64,000 bases of DNA from Nitrospira sp. (GCA_024998625.1 JACOEL010000009.1:1-64000), one strand, 5' to 3'. Counted from the stretch's first letter, positions 45,420 through 56,656 are shown. Translations and numbers: made by a program. Notes: a model not told the origin generated them from the sequence alone.

Positions 45420-45905
45420 CTACTGTGAGGCGTGCTCGGCAGGCAGACCCTGATTCTCGACGATCGATTGCACCTTCATCACGTGGAACGTTCCACCGGC
45501 CTTGGTCGGAGCGGCATCACTCTCGATGCGTGTATACCACCAACGACCCTCGCCTTCCGAGTAATCGGGCGACAGGGTGATCTCGAATCCGCCTTCCCGA
45601 TCGTTTTCCCGTTGAGCCCAGGCCCCGGCCCAACGGTGATCGGAGAGGACATCCGTCCGAAACCGTCCATCCTTAAAGTCATACGAGCCGTTGCCGAATT
45701 GATCCAATCTCAACGGCACCACCATCCCGCTTTCCTCATATTCCCATTCGCCCGCAAGGACCGAGTGTTCAGCCCGGTGGAGGGAAATTTCCCCCGACAC
45801 AGGCTCCGCCCAGGAAGCTTCCTGTAGGCGTGGCGCATGACTGCAGGCCTGCAACACGACCGCACCGAAGCAGATCGACAAGAACGACAGACGCTTCAAC
45901 TTCAT
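45420..45905 (-). CDS. Lipoprotein of unknown function
   Basis: This is a 161-residue lipoprotein with the lipobox LQACS. The body is beta-rich: EHSVLAGEWEYEESGMVVPL, RFRTDVLSDHRWAGAWAQ and GGFEITLSPDYSEGEGRWWY. That pattern suggests a lipocalin-like barrel, although no family can be named. The start follows from the signal peptide. It converges with the dehydrogenase gene nine bases away. Confidence 0.7.
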   Translation of the reverse strand: MKLKRLSFLSICFGAVVLQACSHAPRLQEASWAEPVSGEISLHRAEHSVLAGEWEYEESGMVVPLRLDQFGNGSYDFKDGRFRTDVLSDHRWAGAWAQRENDREGGFEITLSPDYSEGEGRWWYTRIESDAAPTKAGGTFHVMKVQSIVENQGLPAEHASQ

Positions 45906-46299
45906 CGTGTATATCCCTGGTGTTTCCGTACGCACTCTTCTCTCCATGTTTGCTCGAAATTATTTACATACCATGCATGCCCGCCTGCCTCAAGGTTCCT
46001 GCGAATTTTGGCTCATTTCAACCAACTCCAACAATTGTCTCATATTGCGCCGCCAGCCGGCCGCGCAACCGTTTCGAGGCCACCAGTGAAGCCAGACTCT
46101 GTTTCCTGCCATCATCCCGCCCTCAATCCAGTGCCTCAAGGGCGGCCCCCCTCAACCGATAAGGAAAAGGGAGGAAAGGCTGGTCCGGTAGGCATGGCCG
46201 CGCGGCTTCGTCTGGCCTACCTCGGAGAGCTATGGTTCGCCTCCCCCGTTACGAACCATAGCTGGCAAGGATCGGGCGACGAAAGCACGTGATCGCACA
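45906..46299. other. Divergent intergenic region with a structured segment
   Basis: It separates the lipoprotein gene from the first response-regulator gene. No supported gene lies here; the right third holds two strong hairpins listed separately. Confidence 0.5.
46187..46263 (+). ncRNA. Candidate structured 5' leader of the receiver/Hpt operon
   Basis: Two adjacent stems can form. GGTAGGC (46187-46193) pairs with GCCTACC (46215-46221), and the 12-bp arms AGCTATGGTTCG (46228-46239) and CGAACCATAGCT (46252-46263) enclose a 12-base loop. The second ends 36 bases before the ATG of the first receiver. No T-run follows. I cannot match it to a riboswitch class. Confidence 0.4.
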
Positions 46300-46806
46300 A
46301 TGCATAAGGTCCCATTTTCAGACAAAGAACCCCAGCCAGTCGACGCGCTCAAGACACCAGCCGCGGCGCGAAAACCGGTGCCGAACCACTTCGAGGCCTC
46401 AACCCCTACTTTGGTTGCCATCCTGCTCGTCGACGATATGGAGGACAATCGCCTCCTAATCACCCTGTTCCTGAAAGGAACGACATACCGACTCGACACG
46501 GCTGAAAACGGAGCCATCGCGGTGGACAAATTCCAGTCCGGCACGTACGACCTCGTCTTGATGGATATTCAGATGCCGGTCATGGACGGCTACCAGGCCA
46601 CACTCACCATCCGGGCGTGGGAACGAGAGCAGGGGCGATTCCCCACACCGATCATCGCCCTCACGGCCAGTGCGCTCACAGAAGACGTCGAGAAATGCCA
46701 GGCGGCCGGATTCACCTCCCACCTGACGAAGCCCATCAAAAAGACAACGTTGCTGGAGGCTATTCCTCGCTATGCCGTCATCCCGCCGCTGGAGAAGGCC
46801 ATCTGA
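46300..46806 (+). CDS. Response regulator, receiver domain only
   Basis: This is a 168-residue protein with about 40 polar residues before one receiver domain. ILLVDDMEDNR gives the acidic pair, LVLMDIQMPVMDGYQA the phospho-acceptor Asp, IIALTAS the Thr/Ser switch and LTKPIKK the Lys. There is no output domain, so it must act by protein contact or pass phosphate on. The Hpt gene overlaps its stop (TGATG), which suggests the two proteins work as a pair. No histidine kinase is in the window. Confidence 0.9.
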   Translation: MHKVPFSDKEPQPVDALKTPAAARKPVPNHFEASTPTLVAILLVDDMEDNRLLITLFLKGTTYRLDTAENGAIAVDKFQSGTYDLVLMDIQMPVMDGYQATLTIRAWEREQGRFPTPIIALTASALTEDVEKCQAAGFTSHLTKPIKKTTLLEAIPRYAVIPPLEKAI

Positions 46807-47147
46807 TGCGTGATACGTCGCCAGCGCCTCCGGACCTCGAATCCTGGCCTCCGGTGGCTCACGTTGACGCCTCCTTCGAGCCGCTGATTCACAAATTCAT
46901 GACCAACCGGAAGAAAGAGATCACGATCATGGCGGAAGCCGTGACCCAGGACGACTTTGACACGATTCTGAAAATAGCCCATGGCATGAAGGGCGTCAGC
47001 GGGAGCTATGGCTTTCCCGCGCTGACCGCCGCTGCGGCCCTGCTCGAACAGGCGGCCAAGAGTGCCGACGGAGAATCAATCAACCGGCAGCTCACGGCGC
47101 TGGCCTCGTACCTTGACCGGGTCCAAATCATCTATGAGGAATCGTGA
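46806..47147 (+). CDS. Hpt-domain phosphotransfer protein
   Basis: This is a 113-residue four-helix protein. The Hpt motif is KIAHGMKGVSGSYGFPAL, where the His carries phosphate and the Lys and Gly residues are those expected. The N-terminal 30 residues are Pro-rich. Its ATG shares a base with the stop of the preceding receiver gene. It could carry phosphate between that receiver and one of the two receivers that follow, but the direction and kinase are unknown. Confidence 0.88.
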   Translation: MRDTSPAPPDLESWPPVAHVDASFEPLIHKFMTNRKKEITIMAEAVTQDDFDTILKIAHGMKGVSGSYGFPALTAAAALLEQAAKSADGESINRQLTALASYLDRVQIIYEES

Positions 47148-47205
47148 ACCTTATTCAAGTTAGGGCTCATCACCCAATACCTACTGAGCCAGCGGGAAGG
47201 ACCAC

Positions 47206-47625
47206 ATGACCAGCATCAAGGGCTCGCCAGGACTCACGATTCTCATGGTCGAAAATGAAGAAGTTACCGCGTGTCTTTTGGAATTCGTGCTACAAGAGAA
47301 CGGGTACCGTGTGATTCATTCCAACAATGGAGCACACGCCACACGCCTGATGTCCGCCATGGATCCTCCGGATGCCGTCCTCATAGACACGATCTTACCC
47401 GATACGACGGGCCTGAGCCTTCTCGCCTACCTGCGGATACAGGCACACTGGCAGACAACCCCGGTAGCCATGCTCACGACCAATGCCGAGAGCCTCGATC
47501 CGGGACAGGCAGCACTCCTTGGAGTTGACGACTATATTCTCAAACCCGTGAGCCCGACGCGGTTGGCAACTCGATTGAACCGTCTGTTGAAGCATTCGGG
47601 AAGGAAATGGACTCGGGTGGCCTGA
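47206..47625 (+). CDS. Stand-alone receiver protein with altered acidic pocket
   Basis: This is a 139-residue single receiver domain. ILMVENEEVTACLLEFVL starts it; the usual Glu-Asp or Asp-Asp metal pair reads Glu-Asn, which would weaken Mg2+ binding. The phospho-acceptor is kept in VLIDTILPDTTGL, with MLTTN and YILKPVSP. A basic C-terminal tail with RKWTRVA follows. It may be a weakly phosphorylated or constitutive binding form, in contrast to the next receiver. Confidence 0.85.
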   Translation: MTSIKGSPGLTILMVENEEVTACLLEFVLQENGYRVIHSNNGAHATRLMSAMDPPDAVLIDTILPDTTGLSLLAYLRIQAHWQTTPVAMLTTNAESLDPGQAALLGVDDYILKPVSPTRLATRLNRLLKHSGRKWTRVA

Positions 47626-47666
47626 GGGCATACCCTCTCACGATCCCGCAATAAAGGAGCGCTAGC

Positions 47667-48062
47667 ATGGAACCCACCACGAACCACAAACCCGCAGTGC
47701 TCATGGTGGAGGATGAGGAAGATACCGCGAGTCTGCTGAAATTTCTGCTGGAGCGGGCGAGTTACGCAGTCGTCCATGCCAAAGACGGACGGCAGGCTCG
47801 GGAATTGGTCGATACCCTGTCACCGCCTGACATCATTCTGTTGGATGTGATGCTCCCCTTTTTCACCGGCCTACAGGTGCTCGCCTACATCCGAAGTAAC
47901 AGGGCATGGGAGAAGGTACCCATCGTCATGTTGACGGCCGACGGCAGCGAGCACGATATCACCCGCGCGCTCGAAAATGGAGCGAACGATTACATACTCA
48001 AGCCGTTCAACCCTCGCGAGCTGGCCAGCCGGCTGAAGCGCTTCCTGGGCCCATCGGCTTAA
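47667..48062 (+). CDS. Stand-alone receiver protein (CheY-like)
   Basis: This is a 131-residue receiver with all key positions: VLMVEDEEDTASLLKFLL, IILLDVMLPFFTGLQVLAYI, MLTADGSE and YILKPFNPRELASRL. AAAGGAG precedes the ATG. It resembles the preceding receiver in length and layout, so the two probably arose by duplication. The HEAT-repeat membrane gene begins 23 bases after its stop, which makes that protein a likely target. Confidence 0.9.
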   Translation: MEPTTNHKPAVLMVEDEEDTASLLKFLLERASYAVVHAKDGRQARELVDTLSPPDIILLDVMLPFFTGLQVLAYIRSNRAWEKVPIVMLTADGSEHDITRALENGANDYILKPFNPRELASRLKRFLGPSA

Positions 48063-48085
48063 GCGGTTCCGAAAAGGATGTCCGC

Positions 48086-49189
48086 ATGCCTGTTTTGCAC
48101 GATTCCAATGTGACACTCCGGCTGGGTAGCCTCGCGATCTTATGCATCTATTCCGCCGTTATCCTCCTCTTATCAGGCATTCTCCTCCTCAGGCTCATAC
48201 GCCTCGTGAAGGAACGCCGACGCCGGAACGTCACAGCAATCTGGCGCCCGCTCCTCGCCCAATGTGTCGTCGAGGTTCCCGAGACACTTCCCCAGCTCAA
48301 GCCTCGCGACCATCTCGTCTTTCTGTATCTCTGGAACCATTGTTACGAATCGATCCGCGGAGACGCACGGACGCAATTGAACGAACTCGCGCGGCGGACA
48401 AAAAGCGACCAGTTTGCCAAACAACTCCTGCACGCCAGACGCCTGCGTCGACGCCTCCTGGCCATCGTCACGTTGGGGCACCTCCAGGAACGGTCAATTT
48501 GGAACGAGCTCGTCCCCATGTTACGCGCGGACAACGCGTTCCTCTCCCTGGTCGCAGCGAAAGCGCTGCTCACCATCGATGCGCAGGCAGCGGTCCCGCT
48601 CCTGATCCCGGTCATCAGCCGGCGAACGGACTGGTCACCGCTCAAGGTCGTCGCCATGTTCGCGGCCGTGGGAGCGGACATCGCCGCAGACACCATTGCC
48701 AAAGCCGCCTGCCAGGCCTCGCCGGAAATCGGCTCTCGACTGATACGACACCTGGCCGCAACCCAGAGCCAGCAAGGATTGCCTCCGCTCCGGGCCCTCC
48801 TTCGAGAAGATTCGCCGTCCGATGACATCCTCGCCGCCTGCCTATTTTTGTTCGGGGAATGCAGCGACCCGAGGGATGCGGCAACGGTTCGGGCGCATCT
48901 CTCCCATCCAACATGGTACGTGCGCCTTCAGGCGGCATCGGCATTGGGCAAGATGGGTATCGAGGAGGACGAGCCGTTGCTGATCACATTGCTCGATGAC
49001 GAGCACTGGTGGGTGCGCCATCGGGCCGCCGAAGCCTTGTCGAATCTCCCGTGGATGACCGCCGAACGAATGACCCGACTCTGCGGCTCGCTTGCCACCA
49101 TCGAGTCGCATGAACACATGCTTCCCTTCATCGCCCAATCGAATGTCAGGAAAGCCGGATCCCAGCCGACTGCTTCTCCTCGCCTCTAG
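48086..49189 (+). CDS. Membrane-anchored HEAT-repeat protein
   Basis: This is a 367-residue protein with one N-terminal membrane helix (about residues 13-35, LAILCIYSAVILLLSGILLL). Helical repeats of the HEAT/PBS type follow, clearest as VRAHLSHPTWYVRLQAASAL and LLDDEHWWVRHRAAEALSNL. The repeats lie in the cytoplasm, where the receivers are. I infer that it links the receivers to the nearby glycan synthase. AAAAGGA precedes the start. The longest frame adds 60 residues that overlap the receiver gene and are rejected. Confidence 0.82.
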   Translation: MPVLHDSNVTLRLGSLAILCIYSAVILLLSGILLLRLIRLVKERRRRNVTAIWRPLLAQCVVEVPETLPQLKPRDHLVFLYLWNHCYESIRGDARTQLNELARRTKSDQFAKQLLHARRLRRRLLAIVTLGHLQERSIWNELVPMLRADNAFLSLVAAKALLTIDAQAAVPLLIPVISRRTDWSPLKVVAMFAAVGADIAADTIAKAACQASPEIGSRLIRHLAATQSQQGLPPLRALLREDSPSDDILAACLFLFGECSDPRDAATVRAHLSHPTWYVRLQAASALGKMGIEEDEPLLITLLDDEHWWVRHRAAEALSNLPWMTAERMTRLCGSLATIESHEHMLPFIAQSNVRKAGSQPTASPRL

Positions 49190-49263
49190 ACTTCCTAATC
49201 ATCGGCCGGCCAAGGTCTCGCCAGAATGTAATGACAAGTCTGCTCGCTGTCTGTGTGATCTGA

Positions 49264-51201
49264 TTATGAGTGAGGGATAGGCGATGAATGAGGAGACGCT
49301 ACCGACCCGGAAAGCTGCTCGAACCGGAATACGTGCGTACCCTTTAATTCCGGGAAGATGACCACTCGCCCCCGCTGCGTGACGCCTTTATGCACGGAAT
49401 CAGCTTGTCGGAGAATCCATCCTTCAGGTAGCTCGATCGTCAAGCCGGCTATCGATTGTGGCATCGTCAGTGTAACGCGCAAACTCGCAGCGTCACGCGC
49501 TACATCGGTCTCGACCAGATTGCGCGCGGCCCACCAGTGACCGAATTCACGCACCGAGCCGAACCAGGCATACGGCCGCACGCCTTCCACAAATCCCCTC
49601 TCGAAGGCGAGTTTGTGATCGAGAATGTTCGGGTGTATCAGCACGACGAGCGAACCGCCGTAACGACTGATCTGTCTTGCGACCTCCAGAGCCTGCGGGA
49701 GCCGGTCACCCATTTTCGGCAGCTCTTCGTCCTCGATCGTGACCGGAAATTCAAAGATATCCACTTCACTCTCGGTCAACCGGTCGTAGGTCAATTGATA
49801 GGGCAGATGCGTGAGCGAATTGTTCGCCGTGGCCGTCGAACTGTAGCGAAACCCCGTCGCCAGAAGCGCTTGCGGGAGCCCGAATGGATTGGACAGCTCG
49901 CCGGGACGGAAGGAGACGATCTCCTGGCCGGAAAAGTGATCGATCAGAAACTTGCTGACGCGCAATTCACCGAGCACACTCGCATTGACGGCCGTCATGC
50001 GATCTTTGACGAATGGAGCGTAGGACGGATAGGCCTCCAGCCCCGTCCCCATCGGAAACTGATTGAAGACCTTCGAATGGGCGATCGTGTGACTCCCCAA
50101 CTCCATCCCGAGTTCCGCAAGCCGGCCAAGATACCGCACCCCTTCGTCGTTGAAGAAAATATCGTCGTTGTAATCTCGAATGTATTTCACCTGGATGAAA
50201 TAGGTGCCGACCAGCCCCTGACTCTTTTCATACTCCGCGTAGTCGACGGCGTTTTTGATCGACTGGGTGAAATCCACATCGTGCGTGAGCATCACGGAGA
50301 GCGACTTTCCGAACGGCACCGTCCCCACCGTCACCGCCCCCTCTTGCGCCGTACGATAGATGGATTTGAGCAGGCGCAACCAGACATCAAGCGTCGGATC
50401 GAACTGATTATCGTAGGTCCGAACGAGTTCCTCTCCCCGATTGTTGTATCCCTTCAGTAGCAGAAACCCGAGATCCAATCCGATGGCATAGGCCCGACCA
50501 CTCCCGTACAGAGCCTGAGTGACAGCGGCGGTCCCATCATCGAACACCGCGAGCGGAGCGGCGCTTTCGGTGTAGCCATACGTCCCCATCACATCGAGCC
50601 CCTTCTCTCGAATACCGATCCTCAGCCGCTGTTCACGCGGGTCGGTCAATTCCACCAGCAGGGGATCAGACGCCGCCAATCTCAGGCCATACCGCTGACG
50701 GGAAGCAACGGCGTCGCGAAAGCCGAACACCCGGTTCAATCCGCCGCCTAATACCTGCACTCCGATCAGCGTGCCACCCGTCTTTGGGAAATCCCCCAGC
50801 GCCTGAAGTTCTGCCGGAGACAACACCTTCCCGGAGATCATCGGATAAACCAACACAACCTGGTGGGTGAGGGCCTCACGCACATCGCGGGTGATGCGAA
50901 AGGGGATACCGATTGACTTCAATCCATGTGCCAGGCCGAGCCAGGAGGAGTCCGGATCGGTCAGCAAAATCGCCATGCGACTCTTGGAGCCCTGTCCATA
51001 GGTCGTCCATGAGGCCGGCACCCGAGGCGGCACGACCGTCACATGACTGGGGCCCGCGACCCCGGAAAACCGATGAAAATCCTGTTCGGGAATGGTGAGT
51101 GGCCGATCCGCGCGTGGCTCGAAAAAGATCGCAACTCCGATCACCATCGAGAGGAAGAGAACGGCGATCCCGGTAAGCCGAACAACTGTGGCTCGTTCCA
51201 T
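49264..51201 (-). CDS. Membrane-anchored polysaccharide deacetylase-family protein
   Basis: This is a 645-residue protein with an N-terminal anchor (residues 8-27). A domain of about 250 residues with SRMAILLTDPDSSWLGLAHG is followed by a NodB-type deacetylase core: SVMLTHDVDFT with the metal Asp, LGMELGSHTIAHSK with the HxxxH and VSFRPGELSNP. A beta-sandwich C-terminus closes it. It sits in the periplasm and would deacetylate an exported glycan. The TPR/beta-barrel gene ends three bases before its start, so they are one operon. In PgaB this activity is joined to a glycosidase domain; here it is separate. Confidence 0.85.
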   Translation of the reverse strand: MERATVVRLTGIAVLFLSMVIGVAIFFEPRADRPLTIPEQDFHRFSGVAGPSHVTVVPPRVPASWTTYGQGSKSRMAILLTDPDSSWLGLAHGLKSIGIPFRITRDVREALTHQVVLVYPMISGKVLSPAELQALGDFPKTGGTLIGVQVLGGGLNRVFGFRDAVASRQRYGLRLAASDPLLVELTDPREQRLRIGIREKGLDVMGTYGYTESAAPLAVFDDGTAAVTQALYGSGRAYAIGLDLGFLLLKGYNNRGEELVRTYDNQFDPTLDVWLRLLKSIYRTAQEGAVTVGTVPFGKSLSVMLTHDVDFTQSIKNAVDYAEYEKSQGLVGTYFIQVKYIRDYNDDIFFNDEGVRYLGRLAELGMELGSHTIAHSKVFNQFPMGTGLEAYPSYAPFVKDRMTAVNASVLGELRVSKFLIDHFSGQEIVSFRPGELSNPFGLPQALLATGFRYSSTATANNSLTHLPYQLTYDRLTESEVDIFEFPVTIEDEELPKMGDRLPQALEVARQISRYGGSLVVLIHPNILDHKLAFERGFVEGVRPYAWFGSVREFGHWWAARNLVETDVARDAASLRVTLTMPQSIAGLTIELPEGWILRQADSVHKGVTQRGRVVIFPELKGTHVFRFEQLSGSVASPHSSPIPHS

Positions 51202-51204
51202 AGG

Positions 51205-53556
51205 TTACCAGTGATAAATCAGGCTGAGGTTGCCGCCACGGCGGATATAGAGAAATCCGCGGTCTTCATAGTAACCAGCGGCTTCTGCCGAGAATCGCTC
51301 GGTGATCGGGAAAGTCGCGCCCCCCTGAATGGTGCGACTCGCCACCCGGGTAAAGTCCTGCGCGGCCACGATGCGTTCACCGGACGTCCCGAACGAACCG
51401 GACGCGAAGAATTGCAGTCGATCCGTCGGTCGCCAAGTGAGTTGTGAGGAAAGCGTAACGGCGCCCGTGTTCGGAATCAGATAGACCTTTTCCGTCAACC
51501 ACAGATTGAACGGCAGAAAAATCGTCAATCCCGGCATCAACAGATCGATATCGTCCTGCTTGTAATTCAGCCGGCGATAACCGAACGACACTTCGAGCGG
51601 CGCCAACGAAGCATGCAGCCCTCCCAACCCTTGCGCCACTTCGCCGATGAATGAGTAGTTGGGGGAGAAACGGGGGTTGATCGTCCCTTGCGCTGCAATA
51701 TACCCCCAGGCCCGCTGCCACAGCGGACTATACAACTCGGCCGACAGAGGGGTGTCGTGAAACCCGAACCGATTGATCGGCTCAGCCCGCAACACCAGTG
51801 TCTGATTGCCGAAGGGTTTGGCAATCTCAAAGAGCAAATCGCGCTCGTCCGGCTGGTTCTTGGTATAGGAATAATGGCCATACCCGATCTTGGCATAGTC
51901 CCGATAGGGCAGGCGCAACCCGATCAGTCCTTGTCCCACCGCCGCCCGCGGCGATACCAACAATTCGGATTTCACGGCGCGTAATCGTTGTTCGATATCC
52001 GGATCCTGTGTCTCGGCGAGCAGCGCTTCGTACCGCTGCAGGGCTTGAGACCGCTCGCCGCGCCAATGGGCCACCTCGGCAAGCCCACGCCGGGCTTCGA
52101 TCTGTCTGGGATCAGCTTCCAAAACCTGTTCATAGAGAAGGTGGGCTTCGTCGAACTGCTGCTGCCAGGAGAGCACTTGTGCGAGCGCCACACGAACGTC
52201 CTGATCCGCAGGATGATGCGCTAATACCTCTCGATAGAACATGGCGGCTTCCGCGTGGGCACCCTGCCAGGACAGCACTCGCGCCAATGCACTGCGAACT
52301 TCATCGTTCCTGGGATACTGCTGGAGTACCTCACGGTAAACGGCCTCCGCCTCGCGATACTGTTTGGCGACCTCAAACCTGGTGGCTCGCTCCATCGCGC
52401 TCGTGATGGCTCGCACCTCCACTTCCTGCGTGGAAGTATTCGGGTCGGGCGCGGCGGCACGAGTCGGCTTCGAATCGGCCAGCAGTTCAACCTTCACGGC
52501 ATTCAGCTGTGCCTCGATCTGAGGATCGTGGGTTTCCGAGAGCAAGGCTTCGTACCGTTGCAATGCTTCCGACCGATCGCCGCGCCAATGGGCCACCTCG
52601 GCAAGCCCACGCCGGGCTTCGATCTGTCTGGGATCAGCTTCCAAAACCTGTTCATAGAGAAGGTGGGCTTCGTCGAACTGCTGCTGCCAGGAGAGCACTT
52701 GTGCGAGCGCCACACGAATGTCCCGATCCTCGGGATGGCGCACCAACAGGTCTCGATAGAGTGTCGTGGCCTCCACATGGGCGCCCTGCCAGGACAGCAC
52801 TCGCGCCAACGCAGTTCGCAACTCGTCATTTCCGGGAGACCGTTGCAATGCTTCCCTATAGAGAGCTGCGGCCTCGACATAGTCACGTATGGTCTCCAGT
52901 CGTCGTCCCCGTTCCAGCACCTGCTTGCTATCGGGTGATACCGGGTCGGCCGTCGGGGCAGGAACTGGAACAGGCTGAACAACCTCGCCTTTCATGGCAT
53001 GAAAACGGGCCGCGACTTCTGCATCGCCTGTGACCGCCACAATGCGCTCATAGTAGAGGATCGCCTGTTCCTGGTGGCCGCCCCACAACAGCACATCGCC
53101 GAGTCCAGTTAAGGCTTCGACATGGCTCGGCTCGTCACGAAGAATCTGTTCGTACTGTTCCTGCGCCTCATCAAACTTCTTTTGCCATGACAGCACTCGG
53201 GCGAGTCCCGCTCGACTGTCGTGGTCGAGCGGTTGATGGGCGAGGACTTCCCGGTACAGGACAACGGCGTCGTCCCACTGTCCCTGCCAGGACAGGAGCT
53301 TGGCGGTGGTGGCGCGGACCTCATCATTGTCCGGTCGTACCACCAGGTATTGGTGATAGGCGTCGAGAGCTTTAGCGTATTCCTTCTGCTCTTCCAGAAC
53401 CTTGGCCCGTTCCAGCAGCTGACGAGGAGAGGGTTCCTGGGCGTTGGCCGGACCCGTCATGCCGAAGGCATGAAACCAGATCGTGGAGAACAGGGTCAGC
53501 AGGAGGAGACCCGCAAGGGGACTGAATGGACTGCTCCGCATGATGGGATCGCTCAT
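51205..53556 (-). CDS. TPR plus outer-membrane beta-barrel export protein (PgaA/YaiO-like)
   Basis: This is a 783-residue protein. A signal peptide ends near ANAQEP, followed by about twelve TPR units up to residue 530, among them LLSWQGQWDDAVVLYREVLA and VLSWQQQFDEAHLLYEQVLE. The C-terminal 240 residues form beta strands (IGYGHYSYTKNQ, VSFGYRRLNYKQ, AEAAGYYEDRGFLYI) and end in an aromatic residue, LIYHW, as outer-membrane barrels do. TPR plus barrel is the plan of PgaA, the poly-N-acetylglucosamine exporter; the barrel itself recalls YaiO. Long repeats within the TPR part are near-identical in DNA. Confidence 0.85.
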   Translation of the reverse strand: MSDPIMRSSPFSPLAGLLLLTLFSTIWFHAFGMTGPANAQEPSPRQLLERAKVLEEQKEYAKALDAYHQYLVVRPDNDEVRATTAKLLSWQGQWDDAVVLYREVLAHQPLDHDSRAGLARVLSWQKKFDEAQEQYEQILRDEPSHVEALTGLGDVLLWGGHQEQAILYYERIVAVTGDAEVAARFHAMKGEVVQPVPVPAPTADPVSPDSKQVLERGRRLETIRDYVEAAALYREALQRSPGNDELRTALARVLSWQGAHVEATTLYRDLLVRHPEDRDIRVALAQVLSWQQQFDEAHLLYEQVLEADPRQIEARRGLAEVAHWRGDRSEALQRYEALLSETHDPQIEAQLNAVKVELLADSKPTRAAAPDPNTSTQEVEVRAITSAMERATRFEVAKQYREAEAVYREVLQQYPRNDEVRSALARVLSWQGAHAEAAMFYREVLAHHPADQDVRVALAQVLSWQQQFDEAHLLYEQVLEADPRQIEARRGLAEVAHWRGERSQALQRYEALLAETQDPDIEQRLRAVKSELLVSPRAAVGQGLIGLRLPYRDYAKIGYGHYSYTKNQPDERDLLFEIAKPFGNQTLVLRAEPINRFGFHDTPLSAELYSPLWQRAWGYIAAQGTINPRFSPNYSFIGEVAQGLGGLHASLAPLEVSFGYRRLNYKQDDIDLLMPGLTIFLPFNLWLTEKVYLIPNTGAVTLSSQLTWRPTDRLQFFASGSFGTSGERIVAAQDFTRVASRTIQGGATFPITERFSAEAAGYYEDRGFLYIRRGGNLSLIYHW
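52055..52196. repeat. Internal repeat copy A in the TPR gene (142 bp)
   Basis: This block is identical to 52577-52718, offset 522 bp or 174 codons. It encodes the TPR units around QQQFDEAHLLYEQVLEAD. Confidence 0.9.
52577..52718. repeat. Internal repeat copy B in the TPR gene (142 bp)
   Basis: It is identical to 52055-52196. The surrounding 522-bp units are clearly related but have diverged, so this block has been kept alike by recent duplication or conversion. Confidence 0.9.
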
Positions 53557-53589
53557 CCGTGACGGTCCGGGCTTAGCTGCAGCGTGACG

Positions 53590-55269
53590 CTACTCGGCGA
53601 GGGCTCGGAATCCATCGAGATCGTGAATAATCACCCCGGCAAAACTGCGATGAGAAGTGCTGTCTAACATCCTCCTGACGGCCATGGACACATCCGCCCG
53701 AGGGCGACCGGCAAAGGTCAGGCGCTCCGGCCTGACGGTAAATCGATGATGAATGCGGAACCGCTCCTGACGAGATGACGTCGCCTGCGCCTCAGAAGTC
53801 GGCGTCAGTCGGAGCAGCCGGTGGTCGTAATCCAGCAGCGCGTCGGCCCGCCCTGGGCGCGTCTCACGCCGCAACACCACATGTTGTTCCAGCGGTAACG
53901 CCGTCGTTTCGACTGCCAACCACACCGGCGTTCCACTCACCTCGCCATACCGCAGAATATCTTCCGCGATGTCCTGCACTTCGTCGAGATCGGTGCGATA
54001 ACTCATCACCGCCACTTCATCGACACGGTCCATGACGGCACAAGCCAGGGGCCGGCCGTCGATCGTCGGACCGGTCAACCAGAAGGGAATCACTATCGAT
54101 AGCCTCGTTCGCCCCGCGATGGCGCCCTTCAGCACCTCGATGGTTTCGAGATAACGACGAAGCTGCCTGTCATCCTCAAGGAACCCCGGCAGAAGATAGG
54201 GCTCGATGTCGAGCTGCACTCCGAACAGCACGCCAGGCCCCACGAGATCGAGCAATCTCCGTATTTTATCGGCTAAAACAAGAGGTTCCTGAATGGCTTC
54301 GGGGTACCCGTCCAACGCCAGCGCATCGATCCCGCGGTCACGCACCGCTCTCAGCAGTCGTGCATACCCACGCCACAGTGCCTCATCGTCGGATTGAGAG
54401 GGCATTTGAATCAAAACTCTGGAACAGCCCTGGGACCGGCATGTCGCCAACATCGTCTCCGGGTTTTCTAGGGCCGCCCGGTAGTTCCACACCCAGAACC
54501 CGATCCCACCGGGCTGCCGACTCCCTAACGGCTCCCGGACAACCTCTATACGGTCGAACAGGATGCGAGTGCTCTCCGCCTCCGTGGAAATCACGAGGGC
54601 CGTCACATACCGGAGATCCATGCGGCGCCCGACCTCCTTCAAGGGAATGGTCAGATCGAACGGACCGGTTACCGTCGCGAGCGGTACATTGTCCTCCCGC
54701 CGGTGACCAGCCAGATCGTCCAGCGCCACCACCACCTGGCCATCTGCTTGACCACGCAGCCGCACCCACTGGTAGGACAGGAGGTCCATCGGCAATCCAG
54801 CCTGATGCAGCGCGATGCGTTGTCCACAACGCACCCGACCCTGAGCGGTCCACTGCACATCGATGCCCTGGTCGCGCTTGGTCACCTGCCCCTGGCAAGC
54901 GCCGAACGGTCTGGCCTCCCCGAGTTCTGAGGACAGTTCAAGAATAGGCACAAACGGTCGATAAGGAAGAGGGGGAACAGTCTGCGGAGGACCGCTCAAG
55001 GTCGCAGTTGGAGTCGTGCGCTCGCCGATATAGGTAAGCTCAATTTCATAGACGAAGGACGGAATGGGCCCGGACAGGGGAATGTCACCGGCCTGTGCAA
55101 CAGGGAACATGGCCATCAATCCGAACACAGCCTGCAGCAACATCAAGGTCGGCACACTTGGACGCCGGAATGTGTCGCCGGCAAATCTCGCCGAGCCCCG
55201 GAGAATCCTGTTCGGACTGACGCTATTACCGATGGAAAGACTCTGACCCATGTCGTTGGAGGCGCTCAT
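53590..55269 (-). CDS. Exported TIM-barrel glycosidase-like protein
   Basis: This is a 559-residue protein with an N-terminal hydrophobic segment (about residues 40-60) ending AQAGD. A beta-rich domain lies at 70-245 and a barrel at 250-500, with GIGFWVWNYRAALENP, DALALDGYPEAIQEPL, VLFGVQLDIEPYLLPGF and DEVAVMSYRTDLDE. The acidic residues of LDIEP sit where such barrels have their catalytic pair, as in the C-terminal glycosidase domain of PgaB. It is the first gene of the minus-strand operon with the porin and deacetylase genes. Its start overlaps that of the synthase on the other strand. Confidence 0.75.
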   Translation of the reverse strand: MSASNDMGQSLSIGNSVSPNRILRGSARFAGDTFRRPSVPTLMLLQAVFGLMAMFPVAQAGDIPLSGPIPSFVYEIELTYIGERTTPTATLSGPPQTVPPLPYRPFVPILELSSELGEARPFGACQGQVTKRDQGIDVQWTAQGRVRCGQRIALHQAGLPMDLLSYQWVRLRGQADGQVVVALDDLAGHRREDNVPLATVTGPFDLTIPLKEVGRRMDLRYVTALVISTEAESTRILFDRIEVVREPLGSRQPGGIGFWVWNYRAALENPETMLATCRSQGCSRVLIQMPSQSDDEALWRGYARLLRAVRDRGIDALALDGYPEAIQEPLVLADKIRRLLDLVGPGVLFGVQLDIEPYLLPGFLEDDRQLRRYLETIEVLKGAIAGRTRLSIVIPFWLTGPTIDGRPLACAVMDRVDEVAVMSYRTDLDEVQDIAEDILRYGEVSGTPVWLAVETTALPLEQHVVLRRETRPGRADALLDYDHRLLRLTPTSEAQATSSRQERFRIHHRFTVRPERLTFAGRPRADVSMAVRRMLDSTSHRSFAGVIIHDLDGFRALAE

Positions 55270-56656
55270 TTCAATTTCCGAATGGCTGTTCCTGCTCTAC
55301 TTTCTCGGCCTGACTGCCGGATACTTGATGCTGGACCTCATCGCCATCTTCCATCTGCGGCGATACCTGCAAGAGCGCGTGCTCGAAAGCCTACCGCAAT
55401 GCTATACGGGCTTCGAACCGCAAATCAGTATCCTGGTCCCGGCCTATAACGAAGCCGCCACGATCGCCGGCTCCATCCGCTCGCTGCTGCAACTCAGCTA
55501 CTCGGAATACGAAATCGTCGTGATCAACGACGGCTCGAAAGACGCCACGATTGAGGTGCTCCGAAAGGAGTTCGAGCTCTTTCCTTTTCCGGAGCCCTAC
55601 AACACGCAACTGCCCACGGCGGAGATCCGCGCGATCTATCATTCGACGCATCATGCGAACTTGCGCGTGATCGACAAGGAAAACGGCGGCAAAGCCGATT
55701 CTCTGAATGCCGGGATCAACCTGTCGCTCTATCCCCTGTTTTGCTGTATCGATGCGGACTCGATTCTCCAGCCGGACAGTCTGCGACGGGCGGTCCAGCC
55801 CTTCCTGGACGACCATCGCACGGTCGCGAGCGGAGGGACCGTCCGTATCGCCAACGGCTGCCGAGTGGAAAACGGGTTTCTGACAAAGATCGGCCTCCCG
55901 ACGAATCTTCTGGCGCTGTTTCAGATCGTCGAATATCTCCGCGCATTTCTCTTCGGGCGGTTGGGCTGGTCGCCGATGAATGCCATGCTGATCATCTCCG
56001 GCGCGTTCGGCATCTTCCGCAAAGAGGCCGTGGTCACCGTGGGTGGATACCGGTCGGATACGATCGGAGAAGACATGGAACTGGTCGTCCGCCTACACCG
56101 CCATCTACGCCTGAGCGACAAACCCTATCGCATCACGTTCGTGCCCGACTCGGTCTGCTGGACCGAAGCCCCGGAAGATCTTCACACGCTCAAGAATCAA
56201 CGCATTCGCTGGCAGCGGGGGTTGTGCGAGAGTCTGACAAAGAACCTCGACCTCCTCTGCCACCCAAAGGGCGGCACGATCGGCTGGTTCGCGTTTCCCT
56301 TTATGGCCGTTTTCGAGTGGATCGGGCCGGCGATCGAGGTATTCGGCTACTGTTTCCTGACGCTGGGATTTACGATGGGATTTGTCTCCGTGCAGGTCTG
56401 GCTGGTTCTGTTGATCGCAGCCATCGGGCTCGGGGTGCTGCTCTCGGTGAGCGCGCTGCTGCTTGAGGAGATGTCATTTCACGTCTATCCCGATCAACGC
56501 GATGTGCTAAAACTACTCTTGGCCGCCATCCTGGAAAATTTCGGCTTTCGTCAGCTGAATTCCGTGTGGAAACTAATCGGCCTGTATCGATGGGTACGCG
56601 GAAAGAAGGCCACCTGGGGCGCCATGACGAGAACCGCCTCCTGGCAGGCACGATGA
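55250..56656 (+). CDS. Processive family 2 glycosyltransferase, membrane synthase (PgaC-like)
   Basis: This is a 468-residue synthase. An N-terminal helix lies at residues 11-33. The GT-A domain has ISILVPAYNEAATIAGSI, VVINDGSKDAT, FCCIDADSILQPD with the DxD, TIGEDMELVVRL with the catalytic Asp, and QRIRWQRGLCESL with the QxxRW motif of processive enzymes. Four to five helices follow up to residue 440. Relatives make poly-N-acetylglucosamine, cellulose or hyaluronan. No PilZ domain is attached. It is divergent from the operon that would modify and export its product. Confidence 0.9.
   Translation: MSLEALISISEWLFLLYFLGLTAGYLMLDLIAIFHLRRYLQERVLESLPQCYTGFEPQISILVPAYNEAATIAGSIRSLLQLSYSEYEIVVINDGSKDATIEVLRKEFELFPFPEPYNTQLPTAEIRAIYHSTHHANLRVIDKENGGKADSLNAGINLSLYPLFCCIDADSILQPDSLRRAVQPFLDDHRTVASGGTVRIANGCRVENGFLTKIGLPTNLLALFQIVEYLRAFLFGRLGWSPMNAMLIISGAFGIFRKEAVVTVGGYRSDTIGEDMELVVRLHRHLRLSDKPYRITFVPDSVCWTEAPEDLHTLKNQRIRWQRGLCESLTKNLDLLCHPKGGTIGWFAFPFMAVFEWIGPAIEVFGYCFLTLGFTMGFVSVQVWLVLLIAAIGLGVLLSVSALLLEEMSFHVYPDQRDVLKLLLAAILENFGFRQLNSVWKLIGLYRWVRGKKATWGAMTRTASWQAR

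Follow-up and report, generated by a model that had tools for sequence, protein, structure and literature searches.

What kind of machine is encoded at positions 48086-56656 of the Nitrospira sp. contig JACOEL010000009.1 (GCA_024998625.1)? We analysed a 64,000-nucleotide stretch of this contig (positions 1-64000, referred to here as the window), in which an initial annotation had read the locus as a Pga-like exopolysaccharide system with PgaB split over two genes and a HEAT-repeat protein as an additional partner. Current accounts of synthase-dependent exopolysaccharides rely for the most part on a handful of named systems and on control through c-di-GMP. The present locus probably serves to make a sugar polymer, to trim it and to export it. 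Furthermore, we consider it likely that this is a synthase-dependent exopolysaccharide machine in which a GT2 synthase and its HEAT partner, under phosphorelay control, produce an N-acetylhexosamine polymer that is processed by a deacetylase and a TIM-barrel protein and leaves through a barrel. The stronger finding of the analysis is that the HEAT protein, an unstudied membrane protein, is a steady partner of the GT2 synthase across bacteria and haloarchaea.

Organization of the locus

ORF calling in the window confirmed the contiguous genes of the initial annotation, which we assign to a membrane-anchored HEAT protein (48086-49189, + strand), a predicted polysaccharide deacetylase with an N-terminal helix anchor (49264-51201, - strand), a TPR array joined to a YaiO-family outer-membrane barrel (51205-53556, - strand), a TIM-barrel protein (hereafter TIM; 53590-55269, - strand) and a processive GT2 polysaccharide synthase (55250-56656, + strand). 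The set also includes the receiver and Hpt genes of 46300-48062, which immediately precede the start originally given for the locus. These encode the stand-alone receiver REC1 (46300-46806, + strand; Response_reg, 85.5 bits), an Hpt protein with the phosphotransfer motif HGMKG (46806-47147, + strand, the start having been chosen within the ORF; PF01627, 45.2 bits) and two further stand-alone receivers, REC2 (47206-47625, + strand; 67.7 bits) and REC3 (47667-48062, + strand; 97.7 bits), the latter directly 5' of the HEAT gene. The end of REC1 and the start of the Hpt gene overlap by one base, and the five genes from REC1 to HEAT (46300-49189) are separated by gaps of less than 60 bases.

On the - strand, TIM, TPR/barrel and deacetylase genes follow one another with gaps of 33 and 3 bases in an operon-like run, and GT2 is divergent from TIM, whose ORF start overlaps that of GT2. 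As GT2 and HEAT lie on the + strand and only the TIM, barrel and deacetylase genes share the - strand run, the locus comprises three transcription units and not one operon. GT2 and HEAT are 6 kb apart in the window, in separate units; in relatives they are directly adjacent. Outside the set, a lipoprotein-like ORF (45420-45947, - strand) lies between an NAD-dependent dehydrogenase-like gene and the first receiver. The association of these genes is more than chance, because the set is found again in other genomes and in other phyla.

The GT2 synthase

The synthase is a protein of 468 residues in which profile searches found glycosyltransferase domains only (Glycos_transf_2, 86.6 bits) and no MshEN domain. 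Judged on its sequence, it is a distant relative of PgaC/IcaA: PgaC_IcaA (TIGR03937) is its top NCBIfam model, at 151.6 bits far under the cut-off of 422.3, and identity to E. coli PgaC is 28% over 294 residues. The DxD, GED and QRIRW motifs are invariant in eight relatives. In a tree of 37 GT2s, the 29 HEAT-paired synthases formed one side of a 100/100 branch, apart from PgaC/IcaA; NfrB, BcsA and YaiP had very long branches in a first tree, which was rebuilt without them. The window synthase falls within the HEAT-paired clade, as defined here, both by its position on that branch and because its cluster contains a HEAT gene.

A divergent Pga (PNAG) system, with PgaB split into two genes and PgaD lost or replaced, would be in keeping with PgaC_IcaA as the best NCBIfam model and with the familiar combination of a synthase with a deacetylase, a TIM protein and a TPR barrel. 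We regard such a system as unlikely, because the synthase neither groups with the PgaC/IcaA branch nor reaches the PgaC cut-off, and because the genome contains no match to PgaD (PF13994) at E 0.1 and none to GHL13 (PF14883), the PgaB hydrolase domain, in a search that was positive in E. coli. The absence of PgaD and the assignment to a synthase-dependent glycan system of a type other than Pga, both proposed in the initial annotation, are supported.

A HEAT protein accompanies the synthase across phyla

The HEAT protein (HEAT_2, PF13646, 78.4 bits) has a single N-terminal membrane helix at residues 8-43, followed by seven K/R in 22 residues. From this K/R-rich stretch and the positive-inside rule, the HEAT domain is predicted to be cytosolic.

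When loci were chosen by GT2 homology alone, HEAT was found in all that were testable (18 in Nitrospirota, 12 in gamma/betaproteobacteria and 11 plasmid records), nearly always directly adjoining GT2. In Nitrospirota the synthase occurs in 70 of 396 genomes; of 20 loci read, HEAT adjoins GT2 in 17 and lies elsewhere in the locus in one (18/18 testable), the other two not being readable far enough to test for HEAT. Similarly, in the class that contains Massilia, GT2 is present in 13 of 369 genomes and HEAT was adjacent in 12/12 new loci. The 11 plasmid-record synthases (three haloarchaea, Mesorhizobium, Erythrobacter, Deinococcus, Paenibacillus, Planococcus, Emticicia, Bacteroides and Legionella), read as full-length matches of about 33% identity or more, all have HEAT alongside, a call made by annotation only in Halosolutus and by the custom HMM only in Emticicia. 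Across 70 GT2 loci HEAT was present in 65, and the five without it are on contigs that are short or come to an end. The HEAT-paired clade thereby ranges over Nitrospirota, three proteobacterial classes, Deinococcota, Bacillota, Bacteroidota and haloarchaea. No HEAT gene was seen beside the more distant GT2s of Sulfitobacter, Prevotella, Novosphingobium, Levilactobacillus and Deinococcus taeanensis, or beside IcaA and PgaC.

The window's own genome has about 17 HEAT genes, so that a HEAT neighbour would be expected by chance for near 1% of GT2s. The GT2-chosen loci across phyla rule out both chance and a pairing confined to Nitrospira, and the proposal in the initial annotation that the HEAT protein belongs to the system is upheld by its retention with GT2 in all testable loci. 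Our searches of open full-text papers found no description of the module or of a HEAT partner of a GT2 synthase; papers on biofilm loci of Rubrivivax, Variovorax and B. pseudomallei do not describe the HEAT-GT2 set.

Natural fusions would be direct proof of contact, but among the loci read none of HEAT to a receiver or to GT2 was seen. Two long HEAT ORFs, L194:7532-11050 and L195:7493-11746, encode HEAT partners 1173 and 1418 residues long, one of which carries a SPOR domain at its N-terminus; they were considered as fusions and rejected, being longer HEAT arrays.

Accessory genes around the synthase

TIM was found in 16 of 148 sampled Nitrospirota genomes, of which 15 belong to two genera within a single family. 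These genomes keep GT2, TIM, barrel and HEAT as neighbours, with the deacetylase in part of them only; the latter is absent from fifteen TIM-less relatives and from G131, a genome with a distant TIM only. Scattering of the genes in related genomes, which the initial annotation had named as a refutation, is not seen within Nitrospira. In other phyla TIM and the deacetylase can be unlinked, yet they co-occur with the synthase set.

A scan of 84,980 species genomes with the TIM alignment gave 80 loci in alpha-, beta- and gammaproteobacteria, Nitrospira, Brevibacillus and Paenibacillus, most of them with HEAT and GT2. In 13 genomes TIM lies away from a synthase, and in 13/13 of these the GT2 of this clade, with HEAT beside it, is found elsewhere (base rate 13/369). 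In the Massilia class, with the anchor left out, GT2 is present in 3 of 4 TIM genomes versus 9 of 364 others (p 1e-4), in a search that scored few candidates per genome and may undercount TIM. In many proteobacteria the core operon reads receiver, TPR/barrel, HEAT, GT2, with genes touching or overlapping. HMMs for HEAT, barrel and receivers were built iteratively on the fetched loci, and barrel calls under about 60 bits are indicative only.

TIM and the deacetylase are accessory parts, exchangeable periplasmic enzymes that are missing from many loci. In a distant Nitrospirota locus (L190), GT2 is followed by genes for a canonical CE4 deacetylase and TPR proteins, so deacetylation recurs there with another enzyme. 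No YaiO barrel is encoded in the haloarchaeal and Bacillota loci read, which is what one would expect of a barrel that serves only as an outer-membrane exit.

Several loci showed individual peculiarities. In Nitrospira MAG ACE_NIT13, GT2 and TIM form one frame of 1070 residues (L089:8042-11251) with a signal-like stretch at the joint; this frame occurs in one genome only and may be a mutation or an assembly effect. In Erythrobacter aureus (L133) a receiver-TPR-HEAT-GT2 set sits inside a flagellar gene cluster, beside PilZ-domain and motAB genes, and in Planococcus (L138) HEAT-GT2 is preceded by genes for a TIM relative, a polyphosphate polymerase-like protein, DUF4956 and CotH kinase. Finally, four loci from draft genomes (L025, L028, L083 and L063) have broken or split TIM, deacetylase, barrel, HEAT or GT2 frames, which reflect decay or assembly errors.

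Predicted processing enzymes and outer-membrane exit

The initial annotation had called one gene a NodB-type deacetylase. Its match to PF01522 (Polysacc_deac_1; E 0.007, 16.8 bits) is under the gathering score of 23.1, but the fold is supported by the AF2 model (pLDDT 83), whose catalytic domain matches CE4 deacetylases (Z 23.1). Furthermore, the metal-binding and catalytic residues D308, D310, H371, H375, R432 and H523 (D, D, H-x3-H, R, H) are invariant in 12 relatives. In the model the protein consists of a mixed alpha/beta domain, the deacetylase domain and a beta-rich end, and it resembles PelA (9cgy; Z 16.1, 442 residues, rmsd 6.0, 10% identity) and Agd3 (6nwz; Z 15.1, 465 residues, rmsd 8.6) over nearly its whole length, which at 10-13% identity suggests likeness of fold rather than demonstrated homology. 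PelA is built of hydrolase, mixed alpha/beta (ThuA-like), deacetylase and beta-rich domains (PMC12022489), and in its predicted layout the window deacetylase looks like the last three of these.

The deacetylase model can be aligned with PelA along 442 residues, its domains in matching order, and the set also has a hydrolase-like protein of its own and a TPR/barrel protein as exporter. This could point to a Pel-like system with a GalNAc-rich polymer and a PelA-type modification enzyme divided over two genes. We find this very improbable: the synthase is a PgaC-like GT2, R432 is an arginine that PelA lacks, and Agd3 is about as good a match as PelA, to which identity is 10%, while CE4 enzymes score higher over the catalytic domain. 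Among the genes of the set there is no PelD-G gene.

TIM matched no family among the Pfam and NCBIfam profiles. Its AF2 model (mean pLDDT 91.6) has a beta-sandwich and the (beta/alpha)8 barrel with an LDIEP motif that the initial annotation had recognized. The nearest folds are GH18-like, GH5, GH164 and PgaB C-terminal domains (Z 16-20), a list from which absence of a GH family does not exclude that family. Across 30 sequences the two acidic residues of LDIEP, D294 and E296, are invariant, and E394 is conserved in at least 90%; in the model the former pair follows strand 290-293 and the latter strand 389-393, which places acidic residues at the ends of barrel strands 4 and 7. Given this position and conservation, an acid/base and nucleophile pair is plausible, and TIM is predicted to be a periplasmic, glycoside hydrolase-like enzyme. 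Its true start is more likely to be near 55143, which fits a signal-like stretch at residues 37-61. A Cellulomonas protein in the PDB (10yv) is a sequence relative of TIM (E 1e-15). This C. fimi entry, named 'Putative GH97' by its depositors, has a D-x-E-P motif, and the label deserves checking.

Do these two enzymes represent a split PgaB? That the deacetylase and the hydrolase-like protein are separate genes was correctly noted; that they are halves of PgaB was not supported. Profile comparison of the deacetylase and TIM alignments with PgaB gave no significant match, the genome has no GHL13 match, and the deacetylase model is laid out like PelA without its hydrolase, and like Agd3. TIM does resemble the C-terminal domain of PgaB in fold (Z 17.5), a point in favour of a divergent Pga system, but this is one of many GH barrels and is accompanied by no sequence match. 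The two proteins represent families that no curated model used here recognizes above cut-off.

The TPR/barrel protein, the only YaiO match in the genome, exceeds the cut-offs of PF19413 (YaiO; 39.2 bits versus 23.9) and TIGR04390 (80 versus 32), matches many TPR models and ends in an aromatic residue (C-terminus LIYHW), as first noted. Against the PgaA porin model TIGR03939 it scores 97.1 bits, over the TPR part, far under the cut-off of 366.65, which together with its YaiO-type barrel also argues against a divergent Pga system. The TPR array contains near-copies, residues 203-537 being about 52% identical to an earlier part of the protein, and the protein has 783 residues versus 609-639 in many relatives; the array thus seems to expand and contract by whole blocks.

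Receivers and a possible switch

REC3 is the counterpart of the receiver found in the cassettes of other phyla, and it has the phospho-acceptor D60 and K112 that are conserved in the receiver alignment. Cassette receivers keep phospho-acceptor and lysine with few exceptions, one being the L064 receiver, which has no phospho-acceptor. Of 65 loci, 44 have a receiver no more than 1.5 kb away; the third without a nearby receiver includes a Nitrospira subclade in which HEAT directly follows the barrel gene and receivers are not nearby. In one locus (L062) the ORF 3' of GT2 resembles a histidine kinase and weakly matches Hpt. In haloarchaea, PAS or GAF kinases and receivers flank HEAT-GT2, and the plasmids L131, L135 and L136 carry receiver-HEAT-GT2 sets.

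The initial annotation had proposed regulation by receivers instead of a PilZ domain. The association with receivers stands; the contrast with PilZ does not, as Pga itself uses c-di-GMP, which according to an operon survey stabilizes the PgaC-PgaD interaction (PMC7112194).

As the receivers have no output domain, they must act by protein contact, and we infer that the target is HEAT or the HEAT-GT2 complex. It is possible, and we suggest it tentatively, that membrane HEAT proteins are receiver-dependent switches of a large, as yet unnamed bacterial and archaeal synthase clade, in which phosphorylation directly gates polymer synthesis, in parallel to the c-di-GMP switches (PilZ, PgaC-PgaD and MshEN). 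It is quite possible that HEAT is instead a structural accessory subunit for folding or assembly, like PgaD or IcaD, that receives no phospho-signal, with receivers acting elsewhere or linked through common expression only. Retention of HEAT with GT2 in the third of loci without a nearby receiver fits a structural role, as do PgaD and IcaD, mutually unrelated proteins that fill such a role (PMC7112194). On the other hand, receivers need a protein to contact, and the set offers no cytosolic soluble domain other than HEAT and GT2. Furthermore, receiver-barrel-HEAT-GT2 is the commonest proteobacterial order, and flanking receivers are also found in haloarchaea. Were a receiver to work through HEAT, phosphorylation would gate polymer synthesis with no need for transcription.

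In the proposed machine, GT2 would polymerize a nucleotide sugar, most likely UDP-N-acetylhexosamine, and push the chain through the inner membrane, with HEAT, through its single helix and cytosolic domain, as the synthase partner in place of PgaD/IcaD of PNAG systems. An Hpt phosphorelay would feed a stand-alone receiver, which would most likely bind the HEAT domain or the HEAT-GT2 complex and so switch the synthase. Some acetyl groups would be removed by the PelA/Agd3-like deacetylase in the periplasm, where TIM would cut or hold the chain, and the TPR/YaiO barrel would let the chain out. The gene set, the folds, the conserved catalytic residues and the linkage of GT2 with HEAT (often with barrel and receiver) across phyla are directly supported. 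Points that count against the model are the third of loci without a nearby receiver, the L064 receiver with no phospho-acceptor, the many loci that lack the deacetylase and TIM, and the 6 kb between GT2 and HEAT in the window.

Deacetylases suggest an N-acetylated sugar, and in Halosolutus a sugar-phosphate nucleotidyltransferase gene and glmS follow receiver-HEAT-GT2, which fits an amino-sugar precursor. A Legionella locus has nucleotide-sugar dehydrogenase and epimerase genes, so the clade need not share one polymer, and N-acetylhexosamine is our guess for the window. As with this sugar, we infer the HEAT-GT2 contact and the target and direction of control. The genes provide testable candidates for a matrix glycan of nitrifying Nitrospira.

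Comparison with known systems

PgaABCD/HmsHFRS has the same division of labour between a processive GT2, a TPR and outer-membrane barrel protein, a NodB-type deacetylase and a TIM-barrel protein. Here, however, PgaD is absent, the GT2 is of another clade, the barrel is of YaiO type, deacetylase and TIM are separate genes without a PgaB sequence match, and HEAT and receivers are added. By sequence comparison, the Pga label fails on every gene tested, though the logic is the same. IcaADBC (PIA) likewise combines a PgaC/IcaA-kind GT2 with a small membrane partner and a separate deacetylase, but the partner here is HEAT, there is no IcaC-like gene in the set and GT2 is outside the IcaA branch. In PelA (CE21) and Agd3 (CE18), as in the model of the window protein, a mixed alpha/beta domain comes before the deacetylase domain and a beta-rich part ends the protein; in the window the hydrolase domain is unfused, a PgaC-like GT2 would make the chain, identity is 10-13% and R432, absent in PelA, is present.

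The E. coli Nfr system (NfrB-NfrA-YbcH) also joins a GT2 synthase, a TPR/barrel protein and a periplasmic protein (PMC8669469), but NfrB has a c-di-GMP-binding MshEN domain, in place of which the window has HEAT and receivers. In E. coli YaiO-YaiP-YaiS, a YaiO barrel is found beside a GT2 and a putative deacetylase, although that YaiO is short, without the long TPR array, and HEAT, TIM and receiver genes are not present there. Finally, the operon survey, in its available part, describes pga-like operons without pgaD or pgaB, whose regulation is said to be unknown and suggested to be novel (PMC7112194). These share a PgaC-like synthase without pgaD, and that part of the survey mentions neither a HEAT partner nor a receiver. 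In place of a split PgaB, the locus is better read, more widely, as a synthase-dependent exopolysaccharide system built on a GT2-HEAT(-receiver) module with exchangeable periplasmic enzymes.
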